32,659 nt of DNA, taken from positions 1 to 32,659 of IMG/VR virus record IMGVR_UViG_3300030109_006050; one strand, 5' to 3'. The DNA comes from a virus. The notes under the pieces are model-generated. The model did not search any database and was not told where the DNA came from. It worked only from the letters and a program-made list of their open reading frames with translations. This document shows, piece after piece, positions 270 to 32,401 of this stretch. Positions within the stretch are counted from its first letter, which is position 1. The number at the start of each line of letters is the position of its first letter. The position numbers were made by a program, and so were the translations under genes.

Positions 270-274
270 AAATT

Positions 275-394
275 CTATATTGCTCCAATAATAATGATGA
301 CGATTATAGCTACAATACCAGCTTTAATCCAATCTTTCATACTCCAGTCGGACCATTCTTTCAAATGTGCCCATAGATCTTGTACTAGTTTCAT
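275..394 (-). CDS. Small single-pass membrane protein (39 aa)
   Basis: A 39-residue gene starts at ATG 394-392 and ends at TAG 277-275. It has an excellent ribosome binding site, AAAGGAGG, about 5 bases before the start, which is the main reason to accept so short a gene. The N-terminal half is amphipathic and Trp-rich (W8, W14, W17, W22). The C-terminal half, from about residue 26, is an almost pure Ile/Val/Ala/Gly membrane helix. This arrangement fits a small holin, antiholin or membrane effector. It sits in the same operon as the membrane protein to its left, so the two could form a lysis pair. No family is recognised and the role is inferred. Confidence 0.75.
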   Translation of the reverse strand: MKLVQDLWAHLKEWSDWSMKDWIKAGIVAIIVIIIIGAI

Positions 395-422
395 ACAAAC
401 CTCCTTTGTTGATAGGGTTTTA

Positions 423-608
423 TTACTTTACGCCTTTAAAAGCAACTTTTTTGATCTGAGCGTTGCTAGTCTGTCCTTTTGGACCTGCACCTTTGTTTTG
501 TTTAACAATAAAAGGTGAATAAACTATCGCAGCATCAGAACCTACTTTCAAATTTGGAAATGGATTTTTTTGTTTTACCACTTCTACTTTTGTTTTTTTA
601 AAGTTCAT
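423..608 (-). CDS. Small basic hypothetical protein (61 aa)
   Basis: This 61-residue protein is rich in Lys, Val and Gln and has no Cys and no membrane segment. Its ATG overlaps the stop codon of the preceding gene in a TAATG junction, so it is probably translated by coupling. The C-terminal half reads like short beta strands (IVYSPFIV, IKKVAFKGV). I do not recognise a family. Its place among small genes downstream of the portal suggests a late virion or head-completion accessory protein, but nothing in the sequence proves that. Confidence 0.6.
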   Translation of the reverse strand: MNFKKTKVEVVKQKNPFPNLKVGSDAAIVYSPFIVKQNKGAGPKGQTSNAQIKKVAFKGVK

Positions 609-814
609 TATCTTGCCTTTCCATATCCACGTTGAGCTAATCTACCTGCTAGACCACCGTTTTTAAAACTTGTTTTAGTATTAATAATTGATCCTTCTCT
701 AGAACCTTTTACCATACCGCCTTTTTTTAGAAAACCCATTTTGTTACGAACTTGTTTTGGTAACTTTGGTAACCCTTTATTATTTTTTGGTACTGGTTTT
801 AAATTTTTTTTCAT
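608..814 (-). CDS. Small Gly/Lys-rich phage protein (68 aa)
   Basis: A 68-residue, strongly basic protein with two Gly-Gly patches (KKGGMVKGS around residues 30-38 and KNGGLAGRL around 52-60) and the C-terminal end RGYGKAR. Similar short GG-hydrophobic patches occur in several large late proteins of this window. No enzymatic motif is visible. The start is ATG 814-812, one base beyond the stop of the upstream gene, and its own stop is fused with the next gene's start as TAATG. The high charge and low complexity suggest a nucleic-acid-contacting or structural accessory protein; this is inference. Confidence 0.6.
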   Translation of the reverse strand: MKKNLKPVPKNNKGLPKLPKQVRNKMGFLKKGGMVKGSREGSIINTKTSFKNGGLAGRLAQRGYGKAR

Positions 815-815
815 A

Positions 816-1028
816 CTAATGAATTGTTTTATTATCTGACATATCTTTTAACGACTGTTCTACAACTTGTAAAGCCTGATAATCTTCCATTGTTACGTGC
901 AGCAGGTCTTTTGCGACGATAGCAAGAGCCTCAAACATTACAAAGTTCTCATCTAATGAACAATTTTCATCAATAACAAGATCTCTTATTTTTATAATAT
1001 AATTACTAAGTTGTTCTTCTTTTGTCAC
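816..1028 (-). CDS. Small acidic helical protein (70 aa), GTG start
   Basis: This 70-residue protein is acidic and predicted to be nearly all helical, with no Cys and no known motif. The first codon is GTG (1028-1026), supported by an AGG element a few bases upstream. The gene overlaps the end of the upstream 68-residue gene by 23 bases and stops one base before the next gene starts. That tight packing argues it is real, though the product is unrecognised. Position downstream of the portal gene suggests a late protein. Confidence 0.6.
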   Translation of the reverse strand: MTKEEQLSNYIIKIRDLVIDENCSLDENFVMFEALAIVAKDLLHVTMEDYQALQVVEQSLKDMSDNKTIH

Positions 1029-1212
1029 GTTTACCTGCCTTTTGTAGGGCTATAGCTATAGAAAGCCTTTGTTTAGCCTTCTTTTTACTAATCCCCTTTT
1101 TAGAAGCTAGAGTATTAATTGCCTTTTGTCTACTCTTACTTGTTTTAGCTTTATTTAATTCGCTAATGTTAGCAGATATTGTTTTACGGCTAGTTCCTTT
1201 TTTGAGAGGCAT
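1006..1212 (-). CDS. Small basic phage protein with MPLKKG start (68 aa)
   Basis: This is a highly basic 68-residue protein opening with MPLKKGTSRKTISANI. I recall short phage proteins with the same start (MPLKKG, then S-x-KTIS-x-N) followed by an Ala/Ile-rich segment ending in AGK, seen here as IAIALQKAGK. Their function is unknown to me. The middle section (KAINTLASKKGISKKKAKQRL) looks like an extra helix-turn-helix-like insertion compared with the shortest members. The start lies inside the last codons of the portal gene (23-base overlap), so expression is probably coupled to it. DNA binding or a packaging accessory role is possible but unproven. Confidence 0.65.
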   Translation of the reverse strand: MPLKKGTSRKTISANISELNKAKTSKSRQKAINTLASKKGISKKKAKQRLSIAIALQKAGKRDKRRTT

Positions 1213-3541
1213 CTAATTTTTTAAGATTTATATTTGCTCTTAGTTGAGCAATGTCTTCAGCTGACTCAATTCTTGCTTGATCTGTTTTCTCTTTTTGTGC
1301 TAATTTTGCTTGATCTAAATTTAATTTTGCAAAATCATATTCAGCATCTTTTTGATCTCTCATCGCTCTTTGCTGTAATTCTTGTTGTTTTAATTGTATT
1401 ACAGGATCAGGTTGACCTTGTCCTGACATCTGAGCTTGCTGTTGTTGTAGAGCAGCTAAAAGCTGTGCTTCGACTTGAGCAATTTGTGAAGTTTTTAATT
1501 CATCAATATTTTGGGCTTGTTCTCCCATTTGTTCTTCAGCTTGCATAACTTGTGAATCTACAGTTTCTCTTGCTTTAAGTGAAATGTGCTGCATGATATG
1601 TTTATTAATATCTAAAGCTATCATAGGTAAAGCTTGAACTACTGAAGACATACCAAAAAGTAAATGAGCCTGTATATGAGCATCATGGTTTTGTCCTTCG
1701 TATGCTTCAATCTTATCTTGATCTAACAAACGTTGATGCTCCATTGTTGGGCTCATAGGTTCTGGTTTATCCAGTTTCATAATTTTATCTATGTCTGAAA
1801 CGCCTAAAGCTTCATACATTCTACGATAAGCTTCTTTGATGTTGTGTAATTGTGGCGCTGATGTGGCCATTTGTAATTGAGTTTGTGCCAATTGAATTCG
1901 TTGAGCCATACTAAACATATTAGGATCTGCTACAGGTATAATGTCAATTGCTTCATCAAAATCTGTAACTTTGATCGACCTATCTCCTCCAACTACCTGA
2001 TATGGATAATCAGAAGGAAGATAAGTTTTGATCACATTGGCTAGAAGCTTAAACTCTTTTTTCATCGAATAATAAATCCGTTTATGAATTGAGCTCATTA
2101 TTCTTGATCCTCTTTCAAGTAAGGCAATTGTTGTACCTACAGGCGCGCCTTGATTTGCATCACCGACTTGCATGTCAGCAATTTGTGCAAATCGTTGGCC
2201 TGCTTGCACCACAAAACCTAGAAGAGCGAATAATGTTTGGGATGGTTCTTTGTAAGGTAATGGCATTAATCCATCACGTATTGCACCTCCTGGTGCATCT
2301 ACATCTCTAAATTCACCAGGTTGTAAAGGGCTATCATCATCTCTAATTCTCAGTCCTCTCGCTTTAAACCCAGCAGGTAAATTTGATAAAGTTCCTGCGT
2401 CAAGCAATTGTCTAAGTGCTTGTGTTGCTGATCTTGATAGACCACCAATTAAATGTATTAAACCAAATCCATAAAAACCAAGCCCTTGTAAAAATTTGAA
2501 ATGAACAAAGTATTGTGTTTTCTTAAAAAGTTTATCGCCTTCTTCAAAGTTTCTTCTAATTGATAGCACGTTACGCGACTCTTCATCAATAGTAACAATA
2601 TAAGGAATTTTTATACCTGTCTTTTCTTCACCTTGTTTATCTTCGTATCCTATTAAATCTAAGTTCACGTGAAATTCTAATAGAGACATCATCATGCCTT
2701 CGCCGACTTGTTCCACACCTTCTAATTTATCTATCTTATCTTTTACTGCATAACTATTTTGTGAATTGTCATCGTAGGTTTTTAAATCTATATCTCTGTA
2801 AAATCCTGACACTTGTTTTTTACGAACTTCGTTTTCAGTCATACGAACAACATGTGTAATGCGCTCGCAACTTTCTAAATCTGTTGCTGTGTAAGGAACA
2901 ACTAAATCTTCTGCGGGAATAAATTTTGACACAGCTCTTCCAAGACTTGCATCATAATATATTTTTTTAAATGTAGATCCTGATAGAGGTAAATAGAAAA
3001 GCATCTGATCAAGTTCAGGTGTGTACTCTTCCATCACATTTGTAATTTGATAATTCATAAAATCTTTTACGCGCTGTGACTGCTGATATTTTTCTGGCGT
3101 TTCGTCGCCCACGACATACGTTCGAACAGGACCTGATGCAGGCATCAATTCTTTGTAAGCGGAGGAACTGAATTGTGTGACTGCTTCTGCTAGTAGTGGA
3201 TGTGTTACTCCACTTGCTCCCTGAAATGGTTGTGTTCTTTCATTATATTTAAATCCCAGTAAATCTAATCCTTGAGAATATGTTTTTTCCCATTCTTCAC
3301 GGGACGATTTATCATTTTCATATTCACCCATAAGATCGGAAGAAATAATATTTAATTCACTTTCATCTATCTCTTCTGCTAAATTGCCTGAAAATTCTTG
3401 TAGCACGTCTCGCGGATCGTCGGTGACGGTAACCTCTTCTGAAACAATTTCAATTTCTACAGGTTCCTCATTTTTTATTGCGTCCTCGATTGTCTCTCCG
3501 ACAACGGCTTCTATTTTCTTTTCTATGTTATTTTCGGCCAT
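1190..3541 (-). CDS. Portal (head-to-tail connector) protein
   Basis: This 783-residue protein forms the dodecameric ring at the capsid vertex through which the terminase pumps DNA. The body (about residues 60-600) has the layout of the large P22-type portals. It includes the segment QPFQGASGVTHPLLAEAV near residue 105, followed by SSAYKELMPASGPVRT, a recurring signature of podovirus-type portals as I know them. The long C-terminal part (about 660-783) is Gln/Ala-rich and probably coiled coil, matching the barrel/crown helix of P22-like portals. The first 50 residues are acidic and low in complexity. It lies two genes after the large terminase subunit, the usual packaging order. The start at ATG 3541 is 6 bases after the previous stop. 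The functional call is strong; the exact portal family is not certain. Confidence 0.9.
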   Translation of the reverse strand: MAENNIEKKIEAVVGETIEDAIKNEEPVEIEIVSEEVTVTDDPRDVLQEFSGNLAEEIDESELNIISSDLMGEYENDKSSREEWEKTYSQGLDLLGFKYNERTQPFQGASGVTHPLLAEAVTQFSSSAYKELMPASGPVRTYVVGDETPEKYQQSQRVKDFMNYQITNVMEEYTPELDQMLFYLPLSGSTFKKIYYDASLGRAVSKFIPAEDLVVPYTATDLESCERITHVVRMTENEVRKKQVSGFYRDIDLKTYDDNSQNSYAVKDKIDKLEGVEQVGEGMMMSLLEFHVNLDLIGYEDKQGEEKTGIKIPYIVTIDEESRNVLSIRRNFEEGDKLFKKTQYFVHFKFLQGLGFYGFGLIHLIGGLSRSATQALRQLLDAGTLSNLPAGFKARGLRIRDDDSPLQPGEFRDVDAPGGAIRDGLMPLPYKEPSQTLFALLGFVVQAGQRFAQIADMQVGDANQGAPVGTTIALLERGSRIMSSIHKRIYYSMKKEFKLLANVIKTYLPSDYPYQVVGGDRSIKVTDFDEAIDIIPVADPNMFSMAQRIQLAQTQLQMATSAPQLHNIKEAYRRMYEALGVSDIDKIMKLDKPEPMSPTMEHQRLLDQDKIEAYEGQNHDAHIQAHLLFGMSSVVQALPMIALDINKHIMQHISLKARETVDSQVMQAEEQMGEQAQNIDELKTSQIAQVEAQLLAALQQQQAQMSGQGQPDPVIQLKQQELQQRAMRDQKDAEYDFAKLNLDQAKLAQKEKTDQARIESAEDIAQLRANINLKKLDASQKRN

Positions 3542-3547
3542 ACTTTT

Positions 3548-5893
3548 TTATAAATTATTAATATCAATTAATCCACCAAAATTAAACGAAGGTATAGGTA
3601 TACGCCTTTTAATGAGGCCGCCATCTTTTTTCTTTTCAATTAAACTCTCTAAGAGTTTGACGACTTTGCTGCTTTCGAGGATGTTTTTGTAGCTTTCGTC
3701 TCTTGATTTTGAGACTGCTTGGATCGTTTTGATGAGACTGTTGAGATAGTCGATGTTGAACGTGGAAGACCTGTTATCTTCAAGAATTCCTGTGCTGATA
3801 CTTCTTTGAAGGCCATTTATAATCTTTCTATAATCGTTTTTTTCTAAATAGTCACCTGACCAATAGACGTTTCTGTTATATACCATATCAGCTTTATCAC
3901 CAAATACTTTTTCAAATCCTGATTTTATAAGGCTTCCTTCTGGAGCTTTATTATCAAAAGTGAGGAATTCTGCAACAAAACCTCCTGGTACGTTCTTAAC
4001 ATTAAAATCAAGTCCAAGCTCATTGTGCAACTTTTGAATCTGATCCTGTGAGTAATTTCCTTGATAGTATAGCATGCCCGTTCTATTTCGACCCTCAATT
4101 GGTGTATCAGATATAATAAAATTGCTGGCAGCCATTGCGTCTTGATTTAAGTGCTGACCTAACAAAGCTAGCACCTGCATTCGTTGGGGATCCGATAATT
4201 CAACAAATTTGTTTCCAACCTTTACTGTAAGGGGGACGACAACATTAAAATTTGCTTTACCATCATAGGTGCCTGCTCCAAGTTTCATTTTACTTATATC
4301 CACTTTTTGTCCAATTACAGCTGAGACAGCCATTTCCATAATGGAAGGCTCTTTTCCTCTTTTTGTAATAAGTTTGCTAAGATTAGATCGATGAACTAAA
4401 TTGATTTGATTCATTAGCGTTTTATCATCACTAAAATTATTTATAAGCTGTTCAATTTTTTTACCATCTTCCGTTAAAAAACTTCCTACCTCTATTGTTG
4501 CTTTGACCGCCTCTTTGTAGGGAACCTGTGTTGCTTGTAGCTTTTCCACGAAGCGTGAATCAAGTATTTCTATTGGATCCAATTTATTATTTCTAAATTT
4601 AAATCCTTTTTCCTGAAGATCTGCGATAAGCTCGTTTCCCATATCTTCGTAGTTTGTTGATCCTCCTCGACTCTCTGACCATAATAAAGCCTGAAGCTGG
4701 TAGGGTTGTAATTTTTGATCATCAGGTAAATTTTTGTTAACCTCAAAAGTCATTCTGTTAAGTGAGTTTGTAATTAAAGCATATAATTCTGGATTTGATG
4801 CAAGTGTCGTTGGATCTATTCCAAATATTCTAGCCATTTGTAAATCATTAACGGTATTTGGTTCGCGGTCCGTGAGTCCCGTAAAATATTTAAACGTATC
4901 AACATAATTACCAAACTTAGGTGTGTTGACTACCTGATCAGGTAATTTTAAAAATTTATCGAGTGACTGTTCTTGGCGAAAACCCATGCGAATAGGGCGG
5001 CCATTCTTATAATCAGAAAATACTCCAATAGCAATTTTAAGGTTTTCTTTAGGAGTTACACCACCAGACGTGATTGATAGTATATCAAAAAATTTATTCT
5101 TATCCTCATCCGAATATCCTTCTAAAAAATTATCAACCCACTGAGCGCCTTTCTCGTACCAGAATCTAGATGCTGCGTCTCCTTCAAGAGCGCGATTAAC
5201 AAATTCTGCGTTAGGCATTTTAAAACCAAACTTCTCTGTTAACGCTTTCATGTCTATTTTAGTTTTACCGTCAAGCTCAGTAATTGATGATGTGCCTATT
5301 TGATTTAATAATTCATCATTAAAATCATAATCTATTTTTCCTGCTTCAATATTTGAATAGTCTATGCTTCTTAAATCTTTGTCCCCATAAATTTTAATTG
5401 GGTTTAAGGTTTCTATATATTGTTTAGTGTTTTTATCTTTAGCTAAAAATTCTTCTGCTTTTTTAAATTGTTTTTTAGCCTCTCTTTGAACAAGATCTTC
5501 AAATAGTGATTCAAAAATATTTTTTTGTGGGCCTTTGGGTTTTTTTGGAGGCTCATTATCTGGTTCGTCTCCTCTTGTCATTTCTGAAGAAGGCATTTTT
5601 TCCAAATCTTCTTCTTTAACATCTATAGGATCCTCGTCTTTTTTTGTTTCCAAAATAGATAAATCTGTTTTTCCAATTACTGGCGATGGACTATAGAAAC
5701 TATCCTCAAATGTTTTAAAATTATCTTTGTATTGATCTGGAAATAATTGCTCTATGTCTACCAAATCATCAGAACTGTAACCAGATAGGTCTATGCCTTT
5801 ATTCGATCTGAAATACTCAATAACAGCTGGTATGGTCAGTCCCATTCCCGCTGCAACAGTTGCTAATGGTATTAATGCTGCCTGAACTACCAT
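3548..5893 (-). CDS. Large unknown protein between terminase and portal (781 aa)
   Basis: A 781-residue protein of unknown role. Residues 1-30 contain a hydrophobic stretch (LIPLATVAAGMGLTIPAVI) that could be a membrane anchor. Residues 80-150 are acidic and Pro/Lys-rich, probably disordered. A folded region at about 230-410 has the pattern F-WYEKGAQWVDNF, then LSITSGGVTPKENLKIAIG, then TVNDLQMARIFG and YQLQALLW. It resembles a domain I recall from phage polyvalent and head-associated proteins (DUF7178-like), but I am not sure of the family. The C-terminus has two GGLI patches (758-761 and 773-776), a feature shared with other late proteins here. It directly abuts the terminase stop (TAA then ATG), so the genes are co-translated. 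An ejected internal protein is a reasonable guess. Confidence 0.75.
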   Translation of the reverse strand: MVVQAALIPLATVAAGMGLTIPAVIEYFRSNKGIDLSGYSSDDLVDIEQLFPDQYKDNFKTFEDSFYSPSPVIGKTDLSILETKKDEDPIDVKEEDLEKMPSSEMTRGDEPDNEPPKKPKGPQKNIFESLFEDLVQREAKKQFKKAEEFLAKDKNTKQYIETLNPIKIYGDKDLRSIDYSNIEAGKIDYDFNDELLNQIGTSSITELDGKTKIDMKALTEKFGFKMPNAEFVNRALEGDAASRFWYEKGAQWVDNFLEGYSDEDKNKFFDILSITSGGVTPKENLKIAIGVFSDYKNGRPIRMGFRQEQSLDKFLKLPDQVVNTPKFGNYVDTFKYFTGLTDREPNTVNDLQMARIFGIDPTTLASNPELYALITNSLNRMTFEVNKNLPDDQKLQPYQLQALLWSESRGGSTNYEDMGNELIADLQEKGFKFRNNKLDPIEILDSRFVEKLQATQVPYKEAVKATIEVGSFLTEDGKKIEQLINNFSDDKTLMNQINLVHRSNLSKLITKRGKEPSIMEMAVSAVIGQKVDISKMKLGAGTYDGKANFNVVVPLTVKVGNKFVELSDPQRMQVLALLGQHLNQDAMAASNFIISDTPIEGRNRTGMLYYQGNYSQDQIQKLHNELGLDFNVKNVPGGFVAEFLTFDNKAPEGSLIKSGFEKVFGDKADMVYNRNVYWSGDYLEKNDYRKIINGLQRSISTGILEDNRSSTFNIDYLNSLIKTIQAVSKSRDESYKNILESSKVVKLLESLIEKKKDGGLIKRRIPIPSFNFGGLIDINNL

Positions 5894-7351: not shown

Positions 7352-7382
7352 AGGGACTCCTAGGGCCTTTTTACACTAAAAA

Positions 7383-7396
7383 AGGGGGTACCCCCT
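7383..7396. repeat. Perfect 14-bp palindrome AGGGGGTACCCCCT
   Basis: The sequence AGGGGGTACCCCCT equals its own reverse complement and is flanked by A-runs on both sides. The lack of a loop makes it poor as a hairpin terminator but suitable as a dimeric protein binding site. It sits 32 bases before the terL start, within the presumed terL 5' leader. A binding or cutting site for terminase or a regulator is possible; this is inference. Confidence 0.55.
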
Positions 7397-7442
7397 AGAA
7401 AAAAGTTGTCATATGAAATTTTGGTGGCTGAAAATTTAAAAC

Positions 7443-7470
7443 ATGCGCTTGCGTCCTCGCCCCTGCGCAT
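7443..7470. repeat. Inverted repeat ATGCGC/GCGCAT
   Basis: Six-base arms ATGCGC (7443-7448) and GCGCAT (7465-7470) are separated by a 16-base GC-rich spacer. In an otherwise AT-rich genome this dyad stands out. It may be part of a packaging or regulatory site. Short arms mean chance occurrence cannot be excluded. Confidence 0.35.
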
Positions 7471-7494
7471 ACGGGACGATTTTCGGGGGTAAAG

Positions 7495-7514
7495 AATGGC
7501 GGTAAACGGCCATT
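7495..7514. repeat. Hairpin AATGGC/GCCATT
   Basis: Six-base arms AATGGC (7495-7500) and GCCATT (7509-7514) surround an 8-base loop. On the plus strand a short T-run follows, and on the minus strand only CTTT follows. As a terminator it would be weak in either direction. It lies about 120 bases past the end of the VRR-NUC gene in its direction of transcription. Confidence 0.3.
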
Positions 7515-7636
7515 TTTGTCAAAAAATGCAGGTACCCTAACGTTTTTTAGCGGTTCGCGACCAAGATATAAGTTACAATAATAATAATTATCGTAAGTTA
7601 TCCTGATTTATGGCGCATTTCTGCGGGTATTTTGGG

Positions 7637-8032
7637 TCACAAACCGTTATTTTTTTTAAAAAACTCGATTATTCCTGACCAACTGACCGCGTTAGGCGGT
7701 TCGCGCACGCCTTTTTCTAATATTTTCTGCCATTTTGATGTCTCATACAGAATTTCACGCGCTCCGTGAATGGGTTTCGCATGTTCAGAGAAAACAATAA
7801 TAAATGATTTTCTAGGAGTGATTGTAGATAGTTTAAGACACATAGAAATTTGATGAGGACTCAATGTAATTTTATTGGCCTTTGCAATTTTGCATTCAAC
7901 AAATATCGTATCCATGTGTGGTGCAATCCCAATAAGATCTGGGAAACCTTGTTGTGTTGTTGTCTCAATCCTGAACCAATTATAAATTGTCACGTTTTTC
8001 TTTATTAATTTGACAAAGCTAGACTCTTTCAT
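7637..8032 (-). CDS. VRR-NUC-type endonuclease (PD-(D/E)XK)
   Basis: A 131-residue protein with the compact restriction-like nuclease core. The metal-binding pattern is GFPDL (29-33, Asp32), then FVECKIA (Glu46, Lys48), then LSPHQ (57-61, Gln61), which is the usual order in the VRR-NUC family of phage and FAN1-like nucleases. An early Glu (E3) precedes it. Family members cut branched or flapped DNA. Such small phage proteins are taken to act as Holliday-junction resolvases or packaging-associated nucleases that clear branches ahead of terminase. Its position between the two terminase genes supports the second idea. The start ATG is 8032-8030. The nuclease call is strong; the substrate is inferred. 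Confidence 0.85.
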   Translation of the reverse strand: MKESSFVKLIKKNVTIYNWFRIETTTQQGFPDLIGIAPHMDTIFVECKIAKANKITLSPHQISMCLKLSTITPRKSFIIVFSEHAKPIHGAREILYETSKWQKILEKGVREPPNAVSWSGIIEFFKKNNGL

Positions 8033-8077
8033 GCTAAAATAAGATATGGATCAAAACAAATATGTAGGGTTACACAA

Positions 8078-8281
8078 ATGAAGATATTTATTCTTGTAAT
8101 AAGTTTATGGGGATACAATGGATCTACTTGGGTTTACACTGGTAATCAATTAATACTACAAGAAAAATTTAATGAATTAAAACTTTGTGAAGAGATTGGA
8201 CGTAAGTTTATGAAATTTGATATGAATAAATACTTTACTTTTAAAGTACAATGCATCGAAGACATTAACAAAGACATTTAA
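8078..8281 (+). CDS. Small conserved phage protein, MKIFILVISLWGYNG type (67 aa)
   Basis: This 67-residue plus-strand gene stands alone between minus-strand packaging genes and overlaps the end of the small terminase gene by 4 bases, tail to tail. The N-terminus MKIFILVISLWG is short and hydrophobic and could be a weak signal or membrane segment. It is followed by an aromatic-rich stretch (YNGSTWVYTGNQ) and two Cys (C37 and C59). I recall near-identical starts in many marine phage genomes, with no known function. No strong ribosome binding site is visible before the ATG (only TAGGG). Its orientation suggests separate early expression. Confidence 0.7.
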   Translation: MKIFILVISLWGYNGSTWVYTGNQLILQEKFNELKLCEEIGRKFMKFDMNKYFTFKVQCIEDINKDI

Positions 8282-8796
8282 TCTTCAATAAGTTTAGGTT
8301 CTTCTTTTACAGGTGTAACATCAATTATATTCTCTTCACCTTTAATACCTATTCCTTTATTCTGTAGCTCATTTAATTTTGCTACTAATTGTTCACGCGT
8401 AAGATTTTCAATTGCACTTTCCATTCTTATAGTCGGATCATACAATCCAGAAGCTTTACCTCTCAATGCTTCAGCATTAATTGATGCAGCATAATGTTTG
8501 TCTTCTTCAGCAATCTTACTGAGCTTATCAAGTCTAGCTAAATGCTTGTCCATATTAACAGCATACTTATCTTGCAATTCTTTTTTAAGATCATAGATTG
8601 CCTCTGCAACCAATGGATATTTATTTGGATCTTGTAATTCATAAGCAGATTTTCTTGCAATAGCATCCGAGTAACCAGCTTTTCTTGCAGACTCTGAAGC
8701 AGATTGTTGTCCAGTTAATGTATGATAACAAAATTCATGAACAAATCTTAGTTGCTTTGGAGTTAATTTTCTTGCTTTTCGACCATCTATTTTCAT
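8278..8796 (-). CDS. terS: Terminase small subunit
   Basis: A 172-residue DNA-recognition subunit of the packaging terminase. The N-terminus has the typical LTPKQLRFVHEFCYHTLTG...SASESARKAGYSD pattern (about residues 11-46). This is the helix-turn-helix, DNA-binding start of the Terminase_2-type small subunits. The central part (about 60-120) is helical and would form the oligomer. The C-terminal tail is charged and probably contacts the large subunit. It is the first gene of the left late arm, with AGAGG before the ATG and the long control region upstream. It is not adjacent to terL as in most phages, because a nuclease gene and an opposing small gene intervene. Confidence 0.9.
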   Translation of the reverse strand: MKIDGRKARKLTPKQLRFVHEFCYHTLTGQQSASESARKAGYSDAIARKSAYELQDPNKYPLVAEAIYDLKKELQDKYAVNMDKHLARLDKLSKIAEEDKHYAASINAEALRGKASGLYDPTIRMESAIENLTREQLVAKLNELQNKGIGIKGEENIIDVTPVKEEPKLIED

Positions 8797-8926
8797 TTTA
8801 AACCTCTATAAAGCATAATTTCACACACATTTTATAACAAATTAATTAATAAATTTCTACTCACGTTATACTAAAACACATAAAAACTGCCATTTTTTTT
8901 TAAAAACCTTACATTGCTTACACTAC

Positions 8927-23739: not shown

Positions 23740-24155
23740 TTGATTTGTTTGATTTAAAAAAAGGTGAGGCTAAATATTATGACGAGCCACAAACATTTTA
23801 TGTGGTAAGAAATAATACTAACGTTCCGCGTATTACTATTAAAGAAACATATGCGGTGTGGCGAAGAAAAACTCAAAATAAAGTTTGGTTTCAATCAAAG
23901 TATGAGAAAGGAACAAGGTCATTTGATTTTAGTTATACAATAGATCAATTAGCAAATACTATTCCCGATGCTTTGATTATGTCTAAGCTATTTAAAATAG
24001 AAAGATCACAGGAAAATGTTGATAAGTTTAGAAAACAAGCTGACTTTCTTGAAGAAAAACTAAAAGACCCTAATAACTTTACGGCAAGTATTGATGAAAA
24101 CTATTTAAAAAAATGGGGATCAAACTCTGTGAGGTTTGAAAAATTAGGTACTTAA
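23736..24155 (+). CDS. Hypothetical protein, last early gene (139 aa)
   Basis: A 139-residue protein with a beta-rich N-terminal half (TFYVVRNNT, ITIKETYAVWRRK, KVWFQSKY) and a helical C-terminal half. ATG 23736 overlaps the TGA of the preceding gene (ATGA) and has GGAGG upstream; an in-frame ATG at 23724 is unlikely. It ends tail to tail with the late operon, overlapping it by 4 bases with no terminator between. The function is unknown. Confidence 0.65.
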   Translation: MIDLFDLKKGEAKYYDEPQTFYVVRNNTNVPRITIKETYAVWRRKTQNKVWFQSKYEKGTRSFDFSYTIDQLANTIPDALIMSKLFKIERSQENVDKFRKQADFLEEKLKDPNNFTASIDENYLKKWGSNSVRFEKLGT

Positions 24156-24376
24156 TTCTTACTTATCTTGTCTTCAACTAAGTAAGATATTTTGGTTTCA
24201 AGACGTATCAAACGCTCCTTTATTTCTGGTATGTCTTGAACCAAGATTTCCTCTAAACGATCCACCTTAGTTTCAAGAGCTGACACTGTTTGTGACATCA
24301 TACCATAGACTGATCCAGCAGAAATTAAAATCATACTAATCCAAATTACATTTCTTAAATTAAGATCTTTTTCCAT
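24152..24376 (-). CDS. Small membrane-anchored coiled-coil protein (74 aa)
   Basis: A 74-residue protein with a short charged N-terminus, one membrane helix (about residues 9-27, VIWISMILISAGSVYGMM) and a following coiled coil (about 32-66, ALETKVDRLEEIL and later heptads). This shape matches inner-membrane spanins (Rz-like) or XhlA/holin accessory proteins, though it is shorter than Rz. It is the last gene of the right late operon, a usual place for lysis functions. Its ATG overlaps the preceding TAA as TAATG. The topology is well supported; spanin or holin accessory is inference. Confidence 0.7.
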   Translation of the reverse strand: MEKDLNLRNVIWISMILISAGSVYGMMSQTVSALETKVDRLEEILVQDIPEIKERLIRLETKISYLVEDKISKN

Positions 24377-25293
24377 TATATTATCCTTGATCGATTAATT
24401 ATTTGTTCAGGAGTTAAAGCATAAGAATTTAAATTTGCAAACATCATCTCAGGTTCTTTTTTTATTGTTTTAATTTTTTGAATATTAGTAGGAGCATTTT
24501 CAACAACATTTGCTCCAGTATAAATTTCTGCACCTGTAGGAGTGTTCGTCATTAACGGTTGCTGATTTGTATTAAAAGTTCCATATCTGTAAGCATTTAA
24601 AGCACGATCCGCGGCCGATAAACCAGCATTAGTGTTTGCAATTCCAACTGGTGGATCGTTTCTAGTGTCTTTTATTATTCCTTTGTTCATAAAAAAATCA
24701 CTAACTTTACCTTTGCCTGCATCAAATAATCTTTGTACTGTTCCTATACCAGGAAGAAATTTTGAAACATTTCTTATTGTGGCACCACTGCTAAAAGGAA
24801 AAACCTGTTCATACATTGTGGGATTTGCATCGTAAAGACTCTTCATATACGTTGAATAATCAGCACTATTTAAATCCCCTCTTAACTTAGGTCTATTGGT
24901 TTGAGTGGCCCCTATATTCAAACCAAGAATTCCATCTCCTAAATTTCCAGTAAAGTCTGATCTTGAAACACTTTTTCCTTGTTGAAATTTTTCCAACATA
25001 TTTCTTCTTTGAGCATCTGCAATTCTTTTTTGTTGAGCATCTGCAATTATTGCTTTTGGCGCTTGACTTGCGATAGCTAAAGATCGAGTATCCATTGAAG
25101 GATTACTTTTCATTTCTCTTATTTTATCTCTTTCTCTAATAATCTTTTCTAGATTTGATACATTACTTTTTTTGTACCCTTCAGCTTTGTATTGACCTCC
25201 GCCAGTTTGACCGCCTTTACCATCAGGCTTACTTGCTTGTTGGACAACTTTATTGCCTATTCTGACCTCTCCGTGATATCCTCCGTGTGGCAT
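24376..25293 (-). CDS. Unknown late protein, Gly-rich N-terminus (305 aa)
   Basis: A 305-residue protein beginning MPHGGYHGEVRIGNKVV and with GKGGQTGGGQY around residues 25-34. A basic helical segment (about 45-105) includes a near-duplicate phrase, IIADAQQKRIADAQRRN. The remainder is low in charge and Asn/Thr-rich, typical of virion-associated proteins. There is no enzymatic motif. It is coupled to both neighbours by TAATG junctions. A tail or internal virion role is inferred from operon context. Confidence 0.65.
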   Translation of the reverse strand: MPHGGYHGEVRIGNKVVQQASKPDGKGGQTGGGQYKAEGYKKSNVSNLEKIIRERDKIREMKSNPSMDTRSLAIASQAPKAIIADAQQKRIADAQRRNMLEKFQQGKSVSRSDFTGNLGDGILGLNIGATQTNRPKLRGDLNSADYSTYMKSLYDANPTMYEQVFPFSSGATIRNVSKFLPGIGTVQRLFDAGKGKVSDFFMNKGIIKDTRNDPPVGIANTNAGLSAADRALNAYRYGTFNTNQQPLMTNTPTGAEIYTGANVVENAPTNIQKIKTIKKEPEMMFANLNSYALTPEQIINRSRII

Positions 25294-27938
25294 TACGCGA
25301 CCATTTGTTTTGGTTTATTTTTATTCATCAAAGACGCTATCCCGCCTTCATTAGCTTCAAATAATGGTAAACCTACTTGATCCATTTGCATTAAAGTGTT
25401 TGGATTAATAACACCACTTGCTTGTTGAGGCATTTGCATGTTTGGATCTGGCATGGTTGGAACAACACTAGCCATTTGAAAATTTTCATCTGGAGTAGGA
25501 ATATTAAAACTTGTTTGAACTACTGGTAATTCGTCTTCAATAACCGTATTATTACCCTCTAATCTTTCTTTAAGTTGTGTGTCTTGATCTATTATGGAAG
25601 GTATAGGCTCACTATCTACTCCTAAATTTAAACCATCTAGTAAATTGTTATAAAATTGATACTCAGTAGTGTTTTTATCAAAACTATCTCTCAAATCATT
25701 TAACATGTTAGAGACATCCAATTGTTGTTGCTCACCAGGATTTTCTTTTAGATGTAAATCAAAAACATCTTGTGTAACTCTCTGCCAAAACCTAGGTCCT
25801 AAAGGTAATTTTGTAAAAGGCACATTTGTTATTTTGCTTTGTCTTGCTGGATCAAAAACAATATTGGCTGCCTTTGCTAAATTAGGATTACCTAAAACTT
25901 TTGTTAATCCGTATCTTGAAATTAGTAAACCTAGTAAACCAGCAAACCCTGGACCTGCTCCTAAAACAGCTCCTCCTGCTACACCAGCTGAGCCAACTAT
26001 GCCTCTTATAAAAGGCTGTAAGCCTTTAATTTGAGCTGATCTTTGAAGATAACTTGAAGGATCGCCTATTTTTATACCAGCTTCAAAAGCTCCATAATCA
26101 ATAAAATTTTTTAAAAATTGTGGATCAATGCCCGCTTCTTTTAATAAAAATTTACCTCTTTCATCTAAATTTCTTACGTCAAAACCCAATGCTTTTGCAA
26201 GGGCGCCTGGATCAAATTTTAAAACTTTATCTTTAGACGCTTGAGAACCTATTCCTCCAATAGTTTGTTCAGCTACATCAAATTGACCCCTTGCGCTTTG
26301 AAACGCTTTGTCAACAAATTCTCTTGCTACACCTTTAAATACTTTATCTCCTAAAATTGTTTTTAAATCAAATAAAGTAGTAGGAGATTTAATTTTTAAA
26401 ATTGAATCTAACATTAAATCAATGTCTTTTTTTGTAATGTCTAAGCCTGTGTCAAATATATTTTTTGTAAATACATTAAAAGAATTAGCTGCTGGGCTTT
26501 CAAACAGTGTTTTAAAATTTATAGTAAAATTATTAGCTGCTTTGTGAGCATTAATTAATTGATTAGCTAGTTCATCATCTGCTATTTTTGTAATATCAAC
26601 ACTACCAGGCATTATAGCATCATCAAGACCGACCTTTATTGTTTTAAGAATTTTAGCAAATTCTTTATTCATTTGTGTGCCTTGATTTACTATGTCATTG
26701 TAATAAGAGTTTAATTTACCATTCCATTGTCTCAATTGTTCGTAAGAAATATTACCACCTTGTTCGATAATACTTTTTTGTGTTTTATTAGCCCAATTAA
26801 AAAAATCTTTTACAGCAGTGTTGTTTGTTAACCTTTCCATATCGTTAACTCTAAACCAACCAGAATCTTTTAAATCATCAAAACTACGCATTACACCACG
26901 ATTATCGGTCATTCCAACAAACTCACGTAAAGTTTTTCCCTGTCCAAGATCCATGATACTACCAAATAATTTATTTGCATTTAAAACGTTTGGGTCTGAT
27001 AAACCTTTATGTAAATCGAAAGCTTGGTTCCAGAGTTGCGCTGATGTATTTTTCATAGATTTGAATTTTTGTACACCTGTGTTAAAAATTGAAATACCAA
27101 GCTCTGTATACTTACTTGTAGGAGCTATTTTAGCTAACATATTATCAAAAATATTATTAAGCTGTTTTAATCTTGCTCCTTTACTATTTCTTAATCCGCC
27201 ACCTATAAAAGGTAAAATACCAAGAGGTTTTAAAACAAGTGATCCAATTTTAGATTGAGCAGCAATATCAAGTTCAATACCTAAACTTTGAGCTATTCTT
27301 CTAGCTTTTTGTATTGCTGGATCACTAAAATCTAAAGTAGCTCTAGCTAATTTTGGAACTACTTCTGGTATTAATAAACCAATAGATTCCCAAAATATTG
27401 CTTCTTTTGTATCTTGATTTAATTGTTTAAAATTTGGTTTATAATCTTCATTACCTGTAATTAAATATTGTGCAATATCATAAGCTTGTGCACCTGTTAT
27501 TGATCCAAAAACACCGCCAAAAAATGCTTTTCCAAAAGCTCGGGTAATGTTTACAGGATTTGTTGGTAAATTTTTAAGATTTTTAATCTTAAACATATCT
27601 TTTAAACCTGGTAAACTTCCAAATGTACTACCAGCAATAAAGGCATCGTCTCTATCAATAAATATATCTAAACCTTCATACTGTGGCTCCATACCAAATT
27701 CTTTTAATAATTTATTTAAGTAAGTTTTATCGTATGCAGATTTAGATTTTTCAAATGCAGCAATGATTTCTTCATTTCCTGAGTTATAAATTTGTTGAAT
27801 TGTTTCCTTATCAAATTGATAATCTTCACCTTTAAAAGCCTCAACAATTTTTTTAATTCTTTCCGCTTCTTGTTCAGTAGGTGTTTGACCCTCTATTTCT
27901 ATTGGAAAAGGAATTCCATCTACCGTTATAATACCCAT
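25293..27938 (-). CDS. Large late protein, probable internal virion/ejection protein (881 aa)
   Basis: An 881-residue protein. Most of it is helical, with a Gly/Ala-rich hydrophobic region around residues 140-165 and another around 635-665 (GSAGVAGGAVLGAGPGFAGLLGLLIS), which could insert in a membrane. The C-terminal 120 residues are Pro/Met/Gln-rich and probably disordered, ending with NEGGIASLMNKNKPK. Size, helix content and glycine-rich membrane-active segments resemble podovirus internal core/ejection proteins. No enzyme motif (for example lysozyme) is seen. It sits between two other large late genes and is separated from the upstream one by a single base. The family is unrecognised; an ejection role is an inference. 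Confidence 0.7.
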   Translation of the reverse strand: MGIITVDGIPFPIEIEGQTPTEQEAERIKKIVEAFKGEDYQFDKETIQQIYNSGNEEIIAAFEKSKSAYDKTYLNKLLKEFGMEPQYEGLDIFIDRDDAFIAGSTFGSLPGLKDMFKIKNLKNLPTNPVNITRAFGKAFFGGVFGSITGAQAYDIAQYLITGNEDYKPNFKQLNQDTKEAIFWESIGLLIPEVVPKLARATLDFSDPAIQKARRIAQSLGIELDIAAQSKIGSLVLKPLGILPFIGGGLRNSKGARLKQLNNIFDNMLAKIAPTSKYTELGISIFNTGVQKFKSMKNTSAQLWNQAFDLHKGLSDPNVLNANKLFGSIMDLGQGKTLREFVGMTDNRGVMRSFDDLKDSGWFRVNDMERLTNNTAVKDFFNWANKTQKSIIEQGGNISYEQLRQWNGKLNSYYNDIVNQGTQMNKEFAKILKTIKVGLDDAIMPGSVDITKIADDELANQLINAHKAANNFTINFKTLFESPAANSFNVFTKNIFDTGLDITKKDIDLMLDSILKIKSPTTLFDLKTILGDKVFKGVAREFVDKAFQSARGQFDVAEQTIGGIGSQASKDKVLKFDPGALAKALGFDVRNLDERGKFLLKEAGIDPQFLKNFIDYGAFEAGIKIGDPSSYLQRSAQIKGLQPFIRGIVGSAGVAGGAVLGAGPGFAGLLGLLISRYGLTKVLGNPNLAKAANIVFDPARQSKITNVPFTKLPLGPRFWQRVTQDVFDLHLKENPGEQQQLDVSNMLNDLRDSFDKNTTEYQFYNNLLDGLNLGVDSEPIPSIIDQDTQLKERLEGNNTVIEDELPVVQTSFNIPTPDENFQMASVVPTMPDPNMQMPQQASGVINPNTLMQMDQVGLPLFEANEGGIASLMNKNKPKQMVA

Positions 27939-27939
27939 T

Positions 27940-30480
27940 TTATTGTTTATTAATTATCGCTTCTATTTCATCAAGCGTGTATGTTTTCTGATTTTGAAAT
28001 CCTTCTGATCCTTCACCAGCATTATAATTTTTTATTTGATCAACCATTTCATTTAGTTGATCAATTTTAGGAGATAAAGCTTGTAGATCTATATTTTGAT
28101 CGTCATCTGTTGTAACCAGTTTTAAATATTCTTGTAACAATCTGGCAACCTTCTCAGCAACAGCATCAACTTTACCTATTGCTACCTCCGATCCAAAAAA
28201 CCCTGTTGGATCAATTTCTTTTAAACTAATAGCTTCTTGCGTTGTTGTAGGTTGTCTGGTTCCTTTGAAACTAGCTAAGTCTGCAATACCTCTTGCTATA
28301 GAGTTTTTAAGATTTTGTATTTCTTGAATTTCTTCCTTACTAAATGCACTTGATATTTTTCCTTGATCATCAATAAATTGATTTCCAAGATAAGCATTAT
28401 CTATTTGATTAAACATTGTGAATAAGCCTTGAAAATTTTCTAAAATCATACCAGGAAACCCACCAATACCTGGATCATCGACAAGTATTTGTTTCATTCG
28501 TAATAATTCATTTAATGTAGCATTAGATCTAGCTATTAATTTATTAATATCATCTATTTCAGTTGTAGATTTTACACCCTCTTGTGAAATACCAATGTCG
28601 ATATTTGAAGAATTTTCTCCTGAAGGCGGTGTTCCTTCGCTACGCTCCACAATACCACCTTCTGCTTTGTTTTCTTTGCCCGCATAAGTGACTGTTGAAC
28701 CTTTTTTGCCCAAAAATTCTGTTAGATTATAATTAAATTGTAGTTCAGATCCTGGTGGATATAATTCATAAAGTTTGTTAAAATCAATTACTCTTGTTGT
28801 TTCAAGCCCGCCTTCGCCCATTGGGTTTCCTCTAGGTCCTGTTGGTGCATCTTTATACAAACCTAATAAAGCAGCAATAAATCTGTCTCTATCTTTATTT
28901 AAACCTGTAACAAAAGTTTTTTTGTCTTTAGTTTTTGCTGCTTGATTTTTTAATGACTGCAATTGTTGTTTTTGCGCTTGAGTTAGTGCAGCCATTGCTA
29001 ATTGCGTTTTTAATTGACTTTGTTTTGCTCCTTCCTGCACTCCAATTTTATTTATATCTCCAATAAATCCCTTTAAACTATCGTCAGCTGTTTGACCTGA
29101 TCCAAATTCTAGTAATCTATTAGCTGCTGCAAAATTTAAAGCAGCTTTAGATTGACTTGGATCAGATAATCTATTCATTAGAGACATATAGGTTGCATAA
29201 TTATCTTCAAAATTTTGCTGTAGAGGAGACATCTCACCAGTGATAGGTGATCCAGTATTACGCATTACGACGTCTGTAGCACCAATACCAGCTGGTTGTG
29301 AAGGCATCATCATTTGTCCTTGATCCATTTGAGCTATACCTTCATTTGATGAAGTTGCGTCTAACATTTGCATAACTGGTTGAACTAAAACTAAAACAGA
29401 TTCAGGTGTTTTATCGGCATCGGTTTCACCAACAACATCTGCTAATTCATCTCTTCTTTGTTCTTCTGTTTGTTCGTTACCTCTTATTGCATCCATTAAC
29501 TCAACATAATCTGCAGACTCATCCACAGCTTTTTGTTGATTTTCACCTTCTTTCAATATTTCTGAAGCCATTCCCTCGTCGTCTTTAAAACCACTCATGA
29601 TACCAACGTTTTCAGGATCAACTGTTTCGCCTTGCATAGGAGATCCTTGGTTTCTCATTTCAGGCATAAATTTTGTGCCATATACTTCATCCATTTCAAA
29701 TTCTCTTTCTAATCGATCATGTGTTTTAAAATATTCTTCCATGCCGCCTATTCTATCAAAATACTTATTCACTAGCTTATCTCGAATTTTTCTATCTTTT
29801 TTATATTGCTCTTCGTCTCTTTCAGCAGGACTTTGCATTCTTTCTACAATAGCTATCATCGTTTCTATTTCGTCTTGAGTACCAAATGCCTGAATAAGTT
29901 TTAATTCTGCTTCTGGAACATAGTTTGGTCCTTCTAGTTTTACGTAATCTTCCATTGTAAACTGAGCAACTCCCTCATCACGATCAAATTGTTTTGATAA
30001 GTCACCAGCGCCTGATGCGAACTCCATTAGTCTATTAATTCTTTTTTCTCCAAATCTATCAGATTTTTCGCCTGAAACGGGAGATCCCTCTTGTCTGTTT
30101 CTAATACCCTCTACTTCGTTTTTAAAATTTTCAATACCGTCAATATAACTTTCACCTTCGTTTTGATAGTTACGTTCAATAAATGATTTAAATGATGGAT
30201 CATCTGGATCATAGTAATCGCCGCCAATTATCAATCGACTTTCAGGATCACTACGACCAAAAGTAAAATAGTCTGAAATACTATCAAATATTTTACTTAA
30301 AAAACCTTGTTGTTGAGGCTGCTGTGCTTGTTGATTCATCGCTTGATCCGCTGTAAATTCATAAGGATCAAAACCTTTAGCAATATAATCTTCTACAGTA
30401 GTTTCACCAGATACGGGTGACCCAGTTTGCCTTCTTACTGGCATAGTTCTTTGAAACATTTGTCTATTCATCACACTCAT
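27940..30480 (-). CDS. Large late protein with five GSPxxGE repeats (846 aa)
   Basis: An 846-residue acidic, Gln/Asp/Glu-rich protein. Its outstanding feature is a short repeat with consensus R-x-x-G-(S/T)-P-x-x-G-E, at residues 16-26, 128-138, 276-285, 407-416 and 612-622, plus a degenerate RGNPMGEGG near 550. The segments between are of different length and sequence, so it is not a simple tandem repeat. A Gln-rich helical region lies around 480-520. There is no membrane segment or catalytic motif. It is coupled by TAATG to the gene upstream. I believe similar repeats exist in other marine phage virion proteins but know no function. A scaffold, internal or tail-fibre-connecting role is possible. 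Confidence 0.7.
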   Translation of the reverse strand: MSVMNRQMFQRTMPVRRQTGSPVSGETTVEDYIAKGFDPYEFTADQAMNQQAQQPQQQGFLSKIFDSISDYFTFGRSDPESRLIIGGDYYDPDDPSFKSFIERNYQNEGESYIDGIENFKNEVEGIRNRQEGSPVSGEKSDRFGEKRINRLMEFASGAGDLSKQFDRDEGVAQFTMEDYVKLEGPNYVPEAELKLIQAFGTQDEIETMIAIVERMQSPAERDEEQYKKDRKIRDKLVNKYFDRIGGMEEYFKTHDRLEREFEMDEVYGTKFMPEMRNQGSPMQGETVDPENVGIMSGFKDDEGMASEILKEGENQQKAVDESADYVELMDAIRGNEQTEEQRRDELADVVGETDADKTPESVLVLVQPVMQMLDATSSNEGIAQMDQGQMMMPSQPAGIGATDVVMRNTGSPITGEMSPLQQNFEDNYATYMSLMNRLSDPSQSKAALNFAAANRLLEFGSGQTADDSLKGFIGDINKIGVQEGAKQSQLKTQLAMAALTQAQKQQLQSLKNQAAKTKDKKTFVTGLNKDRDRFIAALLGLYKDAPTGPRGNPMGEGGLETTRVIDFNKLYELYPPGSELQFNYNLTEFLGKKGSTVTYAGKENKAEGGIVERSEGTPPSGENSSNIDIGISQEGVKSTTEIDDINKLIARSNATLNELLRMKQILVDDPGIGGFPGMILENFQGLFTMFNQIDNAYLGNQFIDDQGKISSAFSKEEIQEIQNLKNSIARGIADLASFKGTRQPTTTQEAISLKEIDPTGFFGSEVAIGKVDAVAEKVARLLQEYLKLVTTDDDQNIDLQALSPKIDQLNEMVDQIKNYNAGEGSEGFQNQKTYTLDEIEAIINKQ

Positions 30481-31367
30481 TACACTACTCCATATCTTCT
30501 AAGACCGCCAACACCTAAAAACGCACCTAAACCTGTTCCAAGAGCCGCTTGAATTGGAGATGGTCCTCCGCCACCAGATCCCATTGTACTCATAACTTGT
30601 GAGGATGTCGGAGCTCCTTGTAAAATATCACCATAAAAACCTAATTGTTGATATGGCTGCATTATGGTCTGTAGCTGATTTTGTCTTGCAAGATCAAGAC
30701 CAGATTGATTAAACTGTTGTTGTAACGCGCCAATACCTAATAAGTTTTGTATGTCTGATTGACCAAACTGTTGTGCTTGTTGTCCAAGATTTGCTTGTTG
30801 TGCTCCTAGTGCACCAATACCAAGTCCAATAGCTCTTTCTCTTTCTAATTGATTAAGCGCTGCTTGTTGTGCTTGTTGAAAATTTTGAAGATTTAAATTT
30901 GCTAGTGCAGAAGCTCTTGTATCCTGTTGTCCTTTTGCTAATTCTGCTTCAGCTACACCGAAACGCGATCCGCCGAACACGCCTCCTCTAACAGCATCAC
31001 CTGCTAATTGATTTTGTTGCATCGCTGCTCTTTTATCTAACTCAGCTAAAGTAGTATCAATAACTTGTTGTTGAAAAGGATTTGAGTAAGCTGCTATTTG
31101 AGAACTAGTCGGAGCTCCAGTAGCGGCCGATAATAAATTAGTTGCTGCGTCAGTTGATAATGACGCTTTTTGTAAAAAAGGTTCGTAAGCACCGATACCT
31201 GTTAAAGCATTTTGAAAAGCTAATTGTTGTGTTGGTGTAAATGCTGCTTGTTGAAAATCAGGAAGAGTATAGCCTTTTTCTGTTAAAGCTTTTGCCGTAT
31301 CAATTAAACCTAGTTTTCTAGCTTCAATATCTGGGGCTTCTCTATTTATATACTCTGTCGTAGACAT
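30480..31367 (-). CDS. Gln/Ala-rich late protein, probable virion/ejection protein (295 aa)
   Basis: A 295-residue protein almost wholly helical and rich in Gln, Ala and Leu. It has the pattern EYINREAPDIEARKLGLIDTAKAL at the N-terminus, YSNPFQQQVIDTTLAELDKR in the middle and VFGGSRFGVAEAEL soon after. I recall this trio in marine podovirus virion proteins. The long Q/A heptads (about 150-240) suggest a coiled-coil bundle. The C-terminus is Gly-rich. It has TAATG junctions on both sides. Such properties fit an internal core or DNA-ejection protein, though a tail component is possible. Confidence 0.7.
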   Translation of the reverse strand: MSTTEYINREAPDIEARKLGLIDTAKALTEKGYTLPDFQQAAFTPTQQLAFQNALTGIGAYEPFLQKASLSTDAATNLLSAATGAPTSSQIAAYSNPFQQQVIDTTLAELDKRAAMQQNQLAGDAVRGGVFGGSRFGVAEAELAKGQQDTRASALANLNLQNFQQAQQAALNQLERERAIGLGIGALGAQQANLGQQAQQFGQSDIQNLLGIGALQQQFNQSGLDLARQNQLQTIMQPYQQLGFYGDILQGAPTSSQVMSTMGSGGGGPSPIQAALGTGLGAFLGVGGLRRYGVV

Positions 31368-32401
31368 TAATTAACTCCTCTTGATTGTGATGATAGTGTA
31401 CCACCTTTTTCTAAATTTTTCATTGTTTGATACATACGTTTTGCACCTTCTCTTCTATCACCGCCTCCAGCATTTCTTACTGCTTTTGCTGTAAATACAA
31501 ATTCACCATCGCTTAACATAGCAGGTATATCATCGCTTGTGCCAGTGCCTGGTCCGTTTATAGCACCATTTTTACGAGGGAAAAACTCTTTTGATCCATT
31601 TGCTAATTGAACTACACCGCCTTCAGCTGCTCTAATAAAATCATCTGGAAGTTCGTTTACAGGAAATCCTTGATAGTCTTGTAATGTATCATAATATACT
31701 GGTTTTACTCCTTGGCCTGCTACCTGAAACTCTTCAGGATTTTGATAATAAAAAGGGTTTAGTCTTGCTTCGTCCGCAGGAATATATTCTTGATTGTCTT
31801 GTGCAGCTTGATAAGCAGAATATCCTGCAAGTACAGGCAGTCCGTATTGTAATGAATTAGATAATAATGATGATTGAGGCTTTCCTGATAAAATATTTAA
31901 AGCTTGAGCATTTGAAATGCCATAAGAGTTAGCAAAATTATTTACTGCAGTCGGAGATAAATTTCCAGCGCCTTGTTCAAATAAAAAGTTTTCTCCACCT
32001 CTACCAGGAATTAAATTACCTATTCCAGAATAAAACCTTGATCCTAAATCGGGAGAAAGAAATTGTCCTGATAACATATTGCCTGATCCAGGTAGTCCCA
32101 TAAAACCTTGAGCCGAAAGATTAGCTACATTTCCTCCAAAAAATCCTGCTCCTGCAAGATTACCAAGTCCCAAACCTAATGCAGCTGTTTTTAAAGCTCT
32201 GCTGCCTCCTTTACCTGCAACAAGTGATCCTATTCCACCACCAATTGCAGCTCCTGTTGGACCGCCTAACATAAAACCCACAGCCATACCTGCTGGTTCA
32301 GCAACTTTTTTTACAGTGTCTTTTACCTTTTTAAATATTTTACCAACAAAACCACCTATTCCGTATTGTGGTATAGTTTGTAAAAATTGTTCATCAATCA
32401 T
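31367..32401 (-). CDS. Gly-rich late virion protein with PAMLSDGEFV motif (344 aa)
   Basis: A 344-residue protein, first in the right late operon. Residues 35-95 are Gly/Ala-rich and hydrophobic and could span a membrane as in glycine-zipper proteins. The C-terminal third has AEGGVVQLANG (259-269) and then NGPGTGTSD followed by DIPAMLSDGEFVFTAKAVRNAGG (282-313). The PA-x-L-x-x-GEFV core is a recurrent motif in phage tail and tape-measure C-termini, of unknown exact role. AAGGAT lies 7 bases before ATG 32401. It is probably an injected or tail-tip protein; membrane activity is inferred from the glycine-rich region. Confidence 0.72.
   Translation of the reverse strand: MIDEQFLQTIPQYGIGGFVGKIFKKVKDTVKKVAEPAGMAVGFMLGGPTGAAIGGGIGSLVAGKGGSRALKTAALGLGLGNLAGAGFFGGNVANLSAQGFMGLPGSGNMLSGQFLSPDLGSRFYSGIGNLIPGRGGENFLFEQGAGNLSPTAVNNFANSYGISNAQALNILSGKPQSSLLSNSLQYGLPVLAGYSAYQAAQDNQEYIPADEARLNPFYYQNPEEFQVAGQGVKPVYYDTLQDYQGFPVNELPDDFIRAAEGGVVQLANGSKEFFPRKNGAINGPGTGTSDDIPAMLSDGEFVFTAKAVRNAGGGDRREGAKRMYQTMKNLEKGGTLSSQSRGVN

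Follow-up and report, generated by a model that had tools for sequence, protein, structure and literature searches.

Glycine hinges and shared C-terminal peptides in late proteins of a podovirus lineage

The capsid-targeting sequence of phage T4 is an N-terminal peptide that is removed by the prohead protease. Encapsulin cargo-loading peptides are C-terminal, follow a flexible linker and are common to different cargo proteins of a shell with the HK97 fold. In phage T7, the gene of the basic protein gp7.3 lies near the portal gene; a C-terminal loop of the protein (residues 84-98) is anchored on the nozzle, and the basic N-terminal part surrounds the DNA end (PMC11784390). For the tape measure protein of JBD30, residues 1022-1066 are predicted to form a hook from two helices and one hairpin, which is proposed to anchor the tape measure in the baseplate (PMC11445458).

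The window analyzed here is the whole 32,659-base virus fragment IMGVR_UViG_3300030109_006050, from a marine phage akin to the HTVC023P-type pelagiphages. Its portal protein shares 51% identity with the HTVC023P portal, 60% with the HTVC027P portal and 53% with the DSL-LC04 portal (tblastn). The late genes at positions 1-8800 encode TerL, a 781-residue protein, the portal and small proteins. An ejection cassette at 24152-32401 encodes proteins of 344, 295, 846, 881, 305 and 74 residues, and its core order matches that of HTVC023P, HTVC027P and DSL-LC04. Gly-Gly (GG) patches recur in the late proteins of this podovirus lineage. The features of the window are as follows.

608..814, minus strand: 68-residue basic protein with the class-A C-terminal tag, encoded by the third gene after the portal gene on the same strand; an open reading frame whose body is kept in G004 and G009.
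611..661, minus strand: NGGLAGRLAQRGYGKAR-COOH, GG hinge and class-A tag of that protein (residues 52-68); A[KQ]RGYGKAR is terminal in 139 of the 140 IMG/VR matches listed.
701..724, minus strand: KGGMVKGS, first GG patch of the 68-residue protein (residues 31-38); two close relatives have GGGLAKAT or RGGSVNNI instead.
1190..3541, minus strand: portal protein, the common neighbor of tagged genes (phrog_1216, 1.7e-52; tblastn to HTVC023P and HTVC027P).
3551..3634, minus strand: C-terminal block of the 781-residue protein, with DGGLIKRR (3602-3625) and FGGLIDI (3560-3580), conserved in relatives.
25296..25373, minus strand: C-terminal peptide GLPLFEANEGGIASLMNKNKPKQMVA of the 881-residue protein (NEGGIASLM at 25326-25352); GGIA and KP..MVA are invariant in nine of nine homologues.
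28615..28665, minus strand: AEGGIVERS (28639-28665), which leads into repeat five of the RxxG[ST]PxxGE series in the 846-residue protein.
31409..31582, minus strand: tape-measure-type C-terminal module (GPGTGTSDDIPAMLSDGEFVFTAKAV..MKNLE) of the 344-residue protein, matching PHROG tape measures to 7e-10 and JBD30 8rk3.
31601..31627, minus strand: AEGGVVQLA of the 344-residue protein, a linker ahead of the hook module; GG is kept in 15 of 15 homologues and is followed by I, V, M or T.

The 68-residue protein, for which no Pfam or PHROG family was found, ends in AQRGYGKAR with the stop codon at 608-610. The true tag is LAQRGYGKAR-COOH, preceded by a GG hinge. Degenerate DNA of A[KQ]RGYGKAR was scanned against IMG/VR without regard to position and without gene calling, which gave matches on at least 120 contigs. 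Among the matches listed, 139 of 140 directly precede an in-frame stop codon, the sole exception being an internal second copy. The called proteins among these matches are 53 to 309 residues long; their bodies, otherwise unrelated, make up at least nine families, and on 13 contigs more than one of these families is tagged. Also among the matches listed, for 114 of 123 class-A genes a portal gene is at most four genes away, on either side, in contigs picked by the tag only. The close relatives G004 and G009 retain the 68-residue body with a different C-terminus; as the tag was replaced in these two, it is not indispensable. The original prediction had proposed one targeting tag common to at least five late proteins. 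The idea holds in kind for the 68-residue protein, which carries a widespread C-terminal peptide found on differing portal-adjacent proteins, and for which targeting to the capsid or virion is plausible. A single tag for all five proteins was ruled out, as their C-termini and conserved contexts differ, and a reading of the C-termini showed that A[KQ]RGYGKAR is absent from those of the 881-, 846-, 344- and 781-residue proteins.

In a separate observation, a class-A tagged protein (L153, 773-1702) and the product of the gene after the HTVC027P portal (28689-28955) share DL[ST]GDG.VT..D[IV]L.GRGV, a segment that resembles by eye the calcium loop of EF-hand or dockerin domains.

The end of HTVC023P gp32, a portal-adjacent protein that terminates in GIRGVGAAIRGHKFIGVK, prompted a scan for a second class of tag, RGMGAAxRGxxF, with the pattern RG.GAA.RG..[FY]. 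Class-B-like ends in HTVC023P are found on gp32 (...RGVGAAIRGHKFIGVK) and gp51 (...RGGGAAVRGMGFKGVF). All but one of 120 DNA matches (119/120) are exactly C-terminal; the bodies form 22 families, and two contigs have two or more tagged families. Within contigs picked by the tag only, 60 of 81 class-B genes are at most four genes from the portal gene and 44 of the 81 directly follow it. Another observation concerns a 61-residue protein of the window (423-608), whose portal-near homologues elsewhere share the C-terminus G[AGS]GP[KQ]GQ.S..QIKKV.FKG[VL][KF]; the FKGV end of these homologues resembles class-B ends.

The class-C motif, DG.A.RG.TRG (DGIAQRGKTRGK), was tested by a scan. Exactly terminal positions account for 135 of 148 matches; 12 of the remaining 13 stop no more than about 45 residues short of the end, and most of these no more than 27. 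The bodies belong to 85 families, 30 contigs have two or more tagged families, and the genes are mostly five to nine genes downstream of the capsid gene. Clusters of tagged genes reach up to four genes. In all, this phage lineage places at least three tag types on variable, mostly basic head-module proteins. The tag sub-class agrees within the genome in 10 of 10 contigs (P 7e-5), which is suggestive only, because several of these contigs are near copies. Cultured phages yielded no class-A or class-C tagged proteins, and 85,000 bacterial and archaeal genomes yielded none of class C, in searches where the low-complexity filter may have masked short tblastn queries. Further small head-module proteins have related ends, including KGCGAVLSNRRKRT, RGCGRVMSGKRKRT, KGFGRMLKNKRPMTRIYT and KGQGRVIRSKKTRIC; the loci are L380 51047-52067 (G015), L391 33601-33939, L394 25527-25895 and L036 7313-7657. 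These ends are perhaps more tag classes.

In the 40 residues ahead of the tag core, GG is present in 78 of 80 proteins of class A, 36 of 72 of class B and 130 of 130 of class C. The hinge pattern [FYM][AKNS]xGG[ILVMSTK] is 24-45 times more frequent than in shuffled sequences in tagged proteins, against 4 times in other proteins. The patch that had been noticed in the window is therefore, in the tagged proteins, a real recurring element, a hinge, ahead of the tags. In the late proteins of the lineage as a whole, the GG patch is best read as a glycine hinge, not as one tag, with a number of distinct conserved peptides next to it.

The tagged proteins are mostly basic. Net charge per residue is +0.13 for class-A bodies and +0.12 for class-B proteins, compared with -0.01 for other, similarly sized genes of those contigs. 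None of the tagged proteins tested matched a Pfam family, and PHROG gave one clear partial match and otherwise none or marginal ones. Given the basic bodies and the precedent of T7 gp7.3, we favor docking on a fixed portal-tail or inner-head component, at somewhat short of an even chance. On this reading, the likeliest of those considered, the tags would dock basic, DNA-contacting proteins, probably disordered to judge by their composition, at the portal or head region of the virion. During assembly, the tag would attach the C-terminus of the protein to a fixed component of the portal-tail channel or of the inner head, and the basic, probably unstructured body would contact DNA, as with T7 gp7.3. 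The tagged proteins would then be located in the virion, with a binding partner there, and might serve in retention or ejection of DNA. A wider reading is less likely than not: across a large lineage of uncultured podoviruses, a few interchangeable C-terminal peptides, made of a GG hinge and a basic RG-rich end, could act as a general sorting code by which many otherwise unrelated, fast-changing proteins enter the virion and are delivered to the host.

The tagged proteins might instead be cargo inside the head, where the tag would bind the interior of the capsid or scaffold, in the manner of encapsulin cargo-loading peptides or the T4 capsid-targeting sequence, and the varied bodies would be released into the host. 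The large diversity of bodies (85 families in class C), the clusters of up to four tagged genes and the position of class-C clusters downstream of the capsid gene agree with such a role. But classes A and B are found around the portal gene and not the capsid gene, and no enzyme or effector domain was found in the tagged bodies tested with Pfam and PHROG; we consider cargo unlikely. Fainter still is the prospect that the proteins act in the infected cell, as assembly factors, regulators or nucleoid binders whose tail binds one common host or phage partner. That their genes are closely linked to those of the portal, TerL and the capsid argues against this, as do the portal-adjacent analogues in T7, which are virion proteins, although the bodies are basic and K-rich and a late position by itself is no proof of virion location.

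The conserved end could also work chiefly at the DNA or RNA level, for instance as a ribosome-binding site that lies over the stop codon and serves the following gene. Codon choice at the end of class-A tags is biased (GGA AAG GCA AGR), and the following gene begins at most 15 nt away in 95 of 95 cases; a ribosome site may therefore overlap the class-A end. Such an overlapping site cannot explain the peptide. Synonymous codons vary at most tag positions while the peptide is retained, and tags on the same contig differ at 2-6 of 9 third positions in class A and at 3-11 of 12 in class C. As synonymous sites vary between copies on the same contig, selection acts on the protein. With codons varying and residues kept at the other tag positions and in classes B and C, the nucleic-acid explanation is largely refuted and very improbable.

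The seven GG peptides quoted in the original prediction were all found in the translated proteins, with GG at residue 865 of the 881-residue protein, 608 of 846, 261 of 344, 758 and 773 of 781, and 32 and 53 of 68. Three of these patches lie inside or at the edge of the span 25335-31625 that had been given for them, whereas the 781-residue protein (3548-5893) and the 68-residue protein (608-814) are outside it. The statement that most patches are near C-termini applies to the 881- and 781-residue proteins and to the second patch of the 68-residue protein, but not to the 846- and 344-residue proteins or the first 68-residue patch. A test for enrichment in late versus early proteins of related phages had been suggested as a check of the pattern, and in the window a modest enrichment was found. 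With shuffling done protein by protein, the late proteins contain [DEKRN]GG[ILVM] 8 times where 2.4 would be expected (P 0.0055) and the early proteins 0 times where 1.0 would be, P values that are flattering because the pattern was picked after the data had been seen. Plain GG is not enriched in late proteins (45 against 39 by shuffling, P 0.17). The glycine content is higher in late proteins, at 8.0% against 5.3%.

A scoring matrix for GG sites was trained on relatives only and applied to the window and to held-out phages. In the window, the patches of the 881-, 344- and 846-residue proteins outrank all other GG sites and score well over shuffles. In held-out DSL-LC04 the top three sites are in the homologues of the 344- and 846-residue proteins; in HTVC023P they are in the homologues of the 344-, 846- and 881-residue proteins, but with scores that are also reached by shuffles. 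HTVC019P has one isolated match, in the portal, and the matrix found no sites in P22, HTVC010P and CRP-901.

In the 344-residue protein, the patch immediately precedes a hook segment that matches tape measure proteins (PHROG to 7e-10; JBD30 tape measure 8rk3_A, E 0.0079). Residues 258-313 align to residues 1002-1057 of the JBD30 protein. The structural model is poor (mean pLDDT 43) and has short strands and helices at 305-311 and 316-331. Among broader relatives, a high-scoring GG site is present in 10 of 14 hook proteins against 0.43 expected, and such sites are rare in proteins of neighboring slots. The protein is like the tape measure hooks of JBD30 gp46 and T5 pb2 in the common GPGTGTSD.IP..LS..EF, and the alignment overlaps the predicted JBD30 hook. 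Unlike the JBD30 tape measure of 1158 residues, it has 344, is encoded in the ejection cassette of a short-tailed phage, and carries its GG patch ahead of the hook.

The C-terminal peptide of the 881-residue protein is conserved in the lineage as GLPLFANEGGIATLM..KP.QMVA, in nine homologues that are otherwise mostly 34-35% identical. Its model is poor (pLDDT 52) with a low-confidence C-terminal tail, a PDB fold search with this model returned nothing, and a search with the protein as a lone sequence query yielded no relatives. IAQ is over-represented at the C-termini of ejection proteins in the same slot, with 13 of 36 against 0.23 expected. As a side observation on these proteins (L045-L122), the last 24 residues contain LFPxD in 14 of 36 against 0.05 expected, and many of the long ones end in LFPxD..G..IAQRG, with AQRG seen 6 times against 0.02 expected. 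A common origin of this end and the class-C tag is not claimed; it was dropped because, in those class-C genomes that were examined, the long ejection proteins end otherwise.

The 781-residue protein keeps its first GG and an ID.[NRYV].L-type end in four of four relatives, and its second GG in two of four. We also observed that the 846-residue protein has five spaced [RK]xxG[ST]PxxGE copies (30403-30432, 30067-30096, 29626-29655, 29233-29262 and 28615-28644). Homologues in the 846 slot have up to five copies of RxxG[ST]PxxGE, and an 825-residue protein of DSL-LC04, encoded between TerL and the portal, has one.

The higher glycine content of late proteins, the lack of enrichment of GG itself and the post hoc pattern would suit patches that arise by chance in glycine-rich, low-complexity late proteins. 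Loss of position in homologues had been named as grounds for abandoning the pattern. Homologues of the 881-, 344- and 781-residue proteins have the patch in the same position, however, and the tag of the 68-residue protein is exactly C-terminal across contigs. Chance is refuted for the 881-, 344- and 68-residue proteins and is still possible for KGGMVKGS; as a general account it is hardly tenable. Cleavage after GG, also raised in the original prediction, is scarcely credible at all: P22 gp7 is processed, though at its N-terminus according to annotation, and a cut near the JBD30 tape measure hook has been proposed from prediction only (PMC11445458), but that site is after the hook and not at GG, no protease gene was noticed among the proteins examined here, and the claim is unsupported because a cut would strip the residues C-terminal of GG, where the tag is most strongly conserved.

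No paper in the searched literature names RGYGKA, and RGMGAA and RGKTRG gave only irrelevant matches. Shared targeting peptides are a known kind of signal; a C-terminal set so broad in tailed phages is undescribed as far as we have checked, and the class-A tag appears to be a docking or packaging signal that is likewise undescribed. Should the tag direct proteins into virions, the internal or injected proteins of widespread uncultured podoviruses related to HTVC023P could be listed from sequence only, and small basic phage genes that now form a dark class would become a testable set. The structural question is then where the tag is read: on a surface of the portal, of the nozzle or of the capsid.

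Among the known systems, the tagged proteins resemble T7 gp7.3 and gp6.7, small virion proteins with genes just upstream of the portal gene, in that they are small, basic and encoded near the portal. The parallel is one of arrangement only, as the C-terminus of gp7.3, KKSLSVARSSGGGINI, has by eye no sequence motif in common with the tags, and no tail common to many unrelated proteins is shown in T7, unlike in the tagged phages. With the capsid-targeting sequence of T4, which directs proteins into the head, the tags share the use of one short peptide by different proteins. The T4 sequence is N-terminal, whereas the class-A tag is C-terminal in 139 of the 140 matches listed. Compared with encapsulin cargo-loading peptides, with which they have the HK97-fold shell in common, the tags differ in sequence, and the tagged genes belong to a tailed phage, where they flank the portal gene or come after the capsid gene; like those peptides, they are C-terminal, have a linker ahead and are carried by different proteins.
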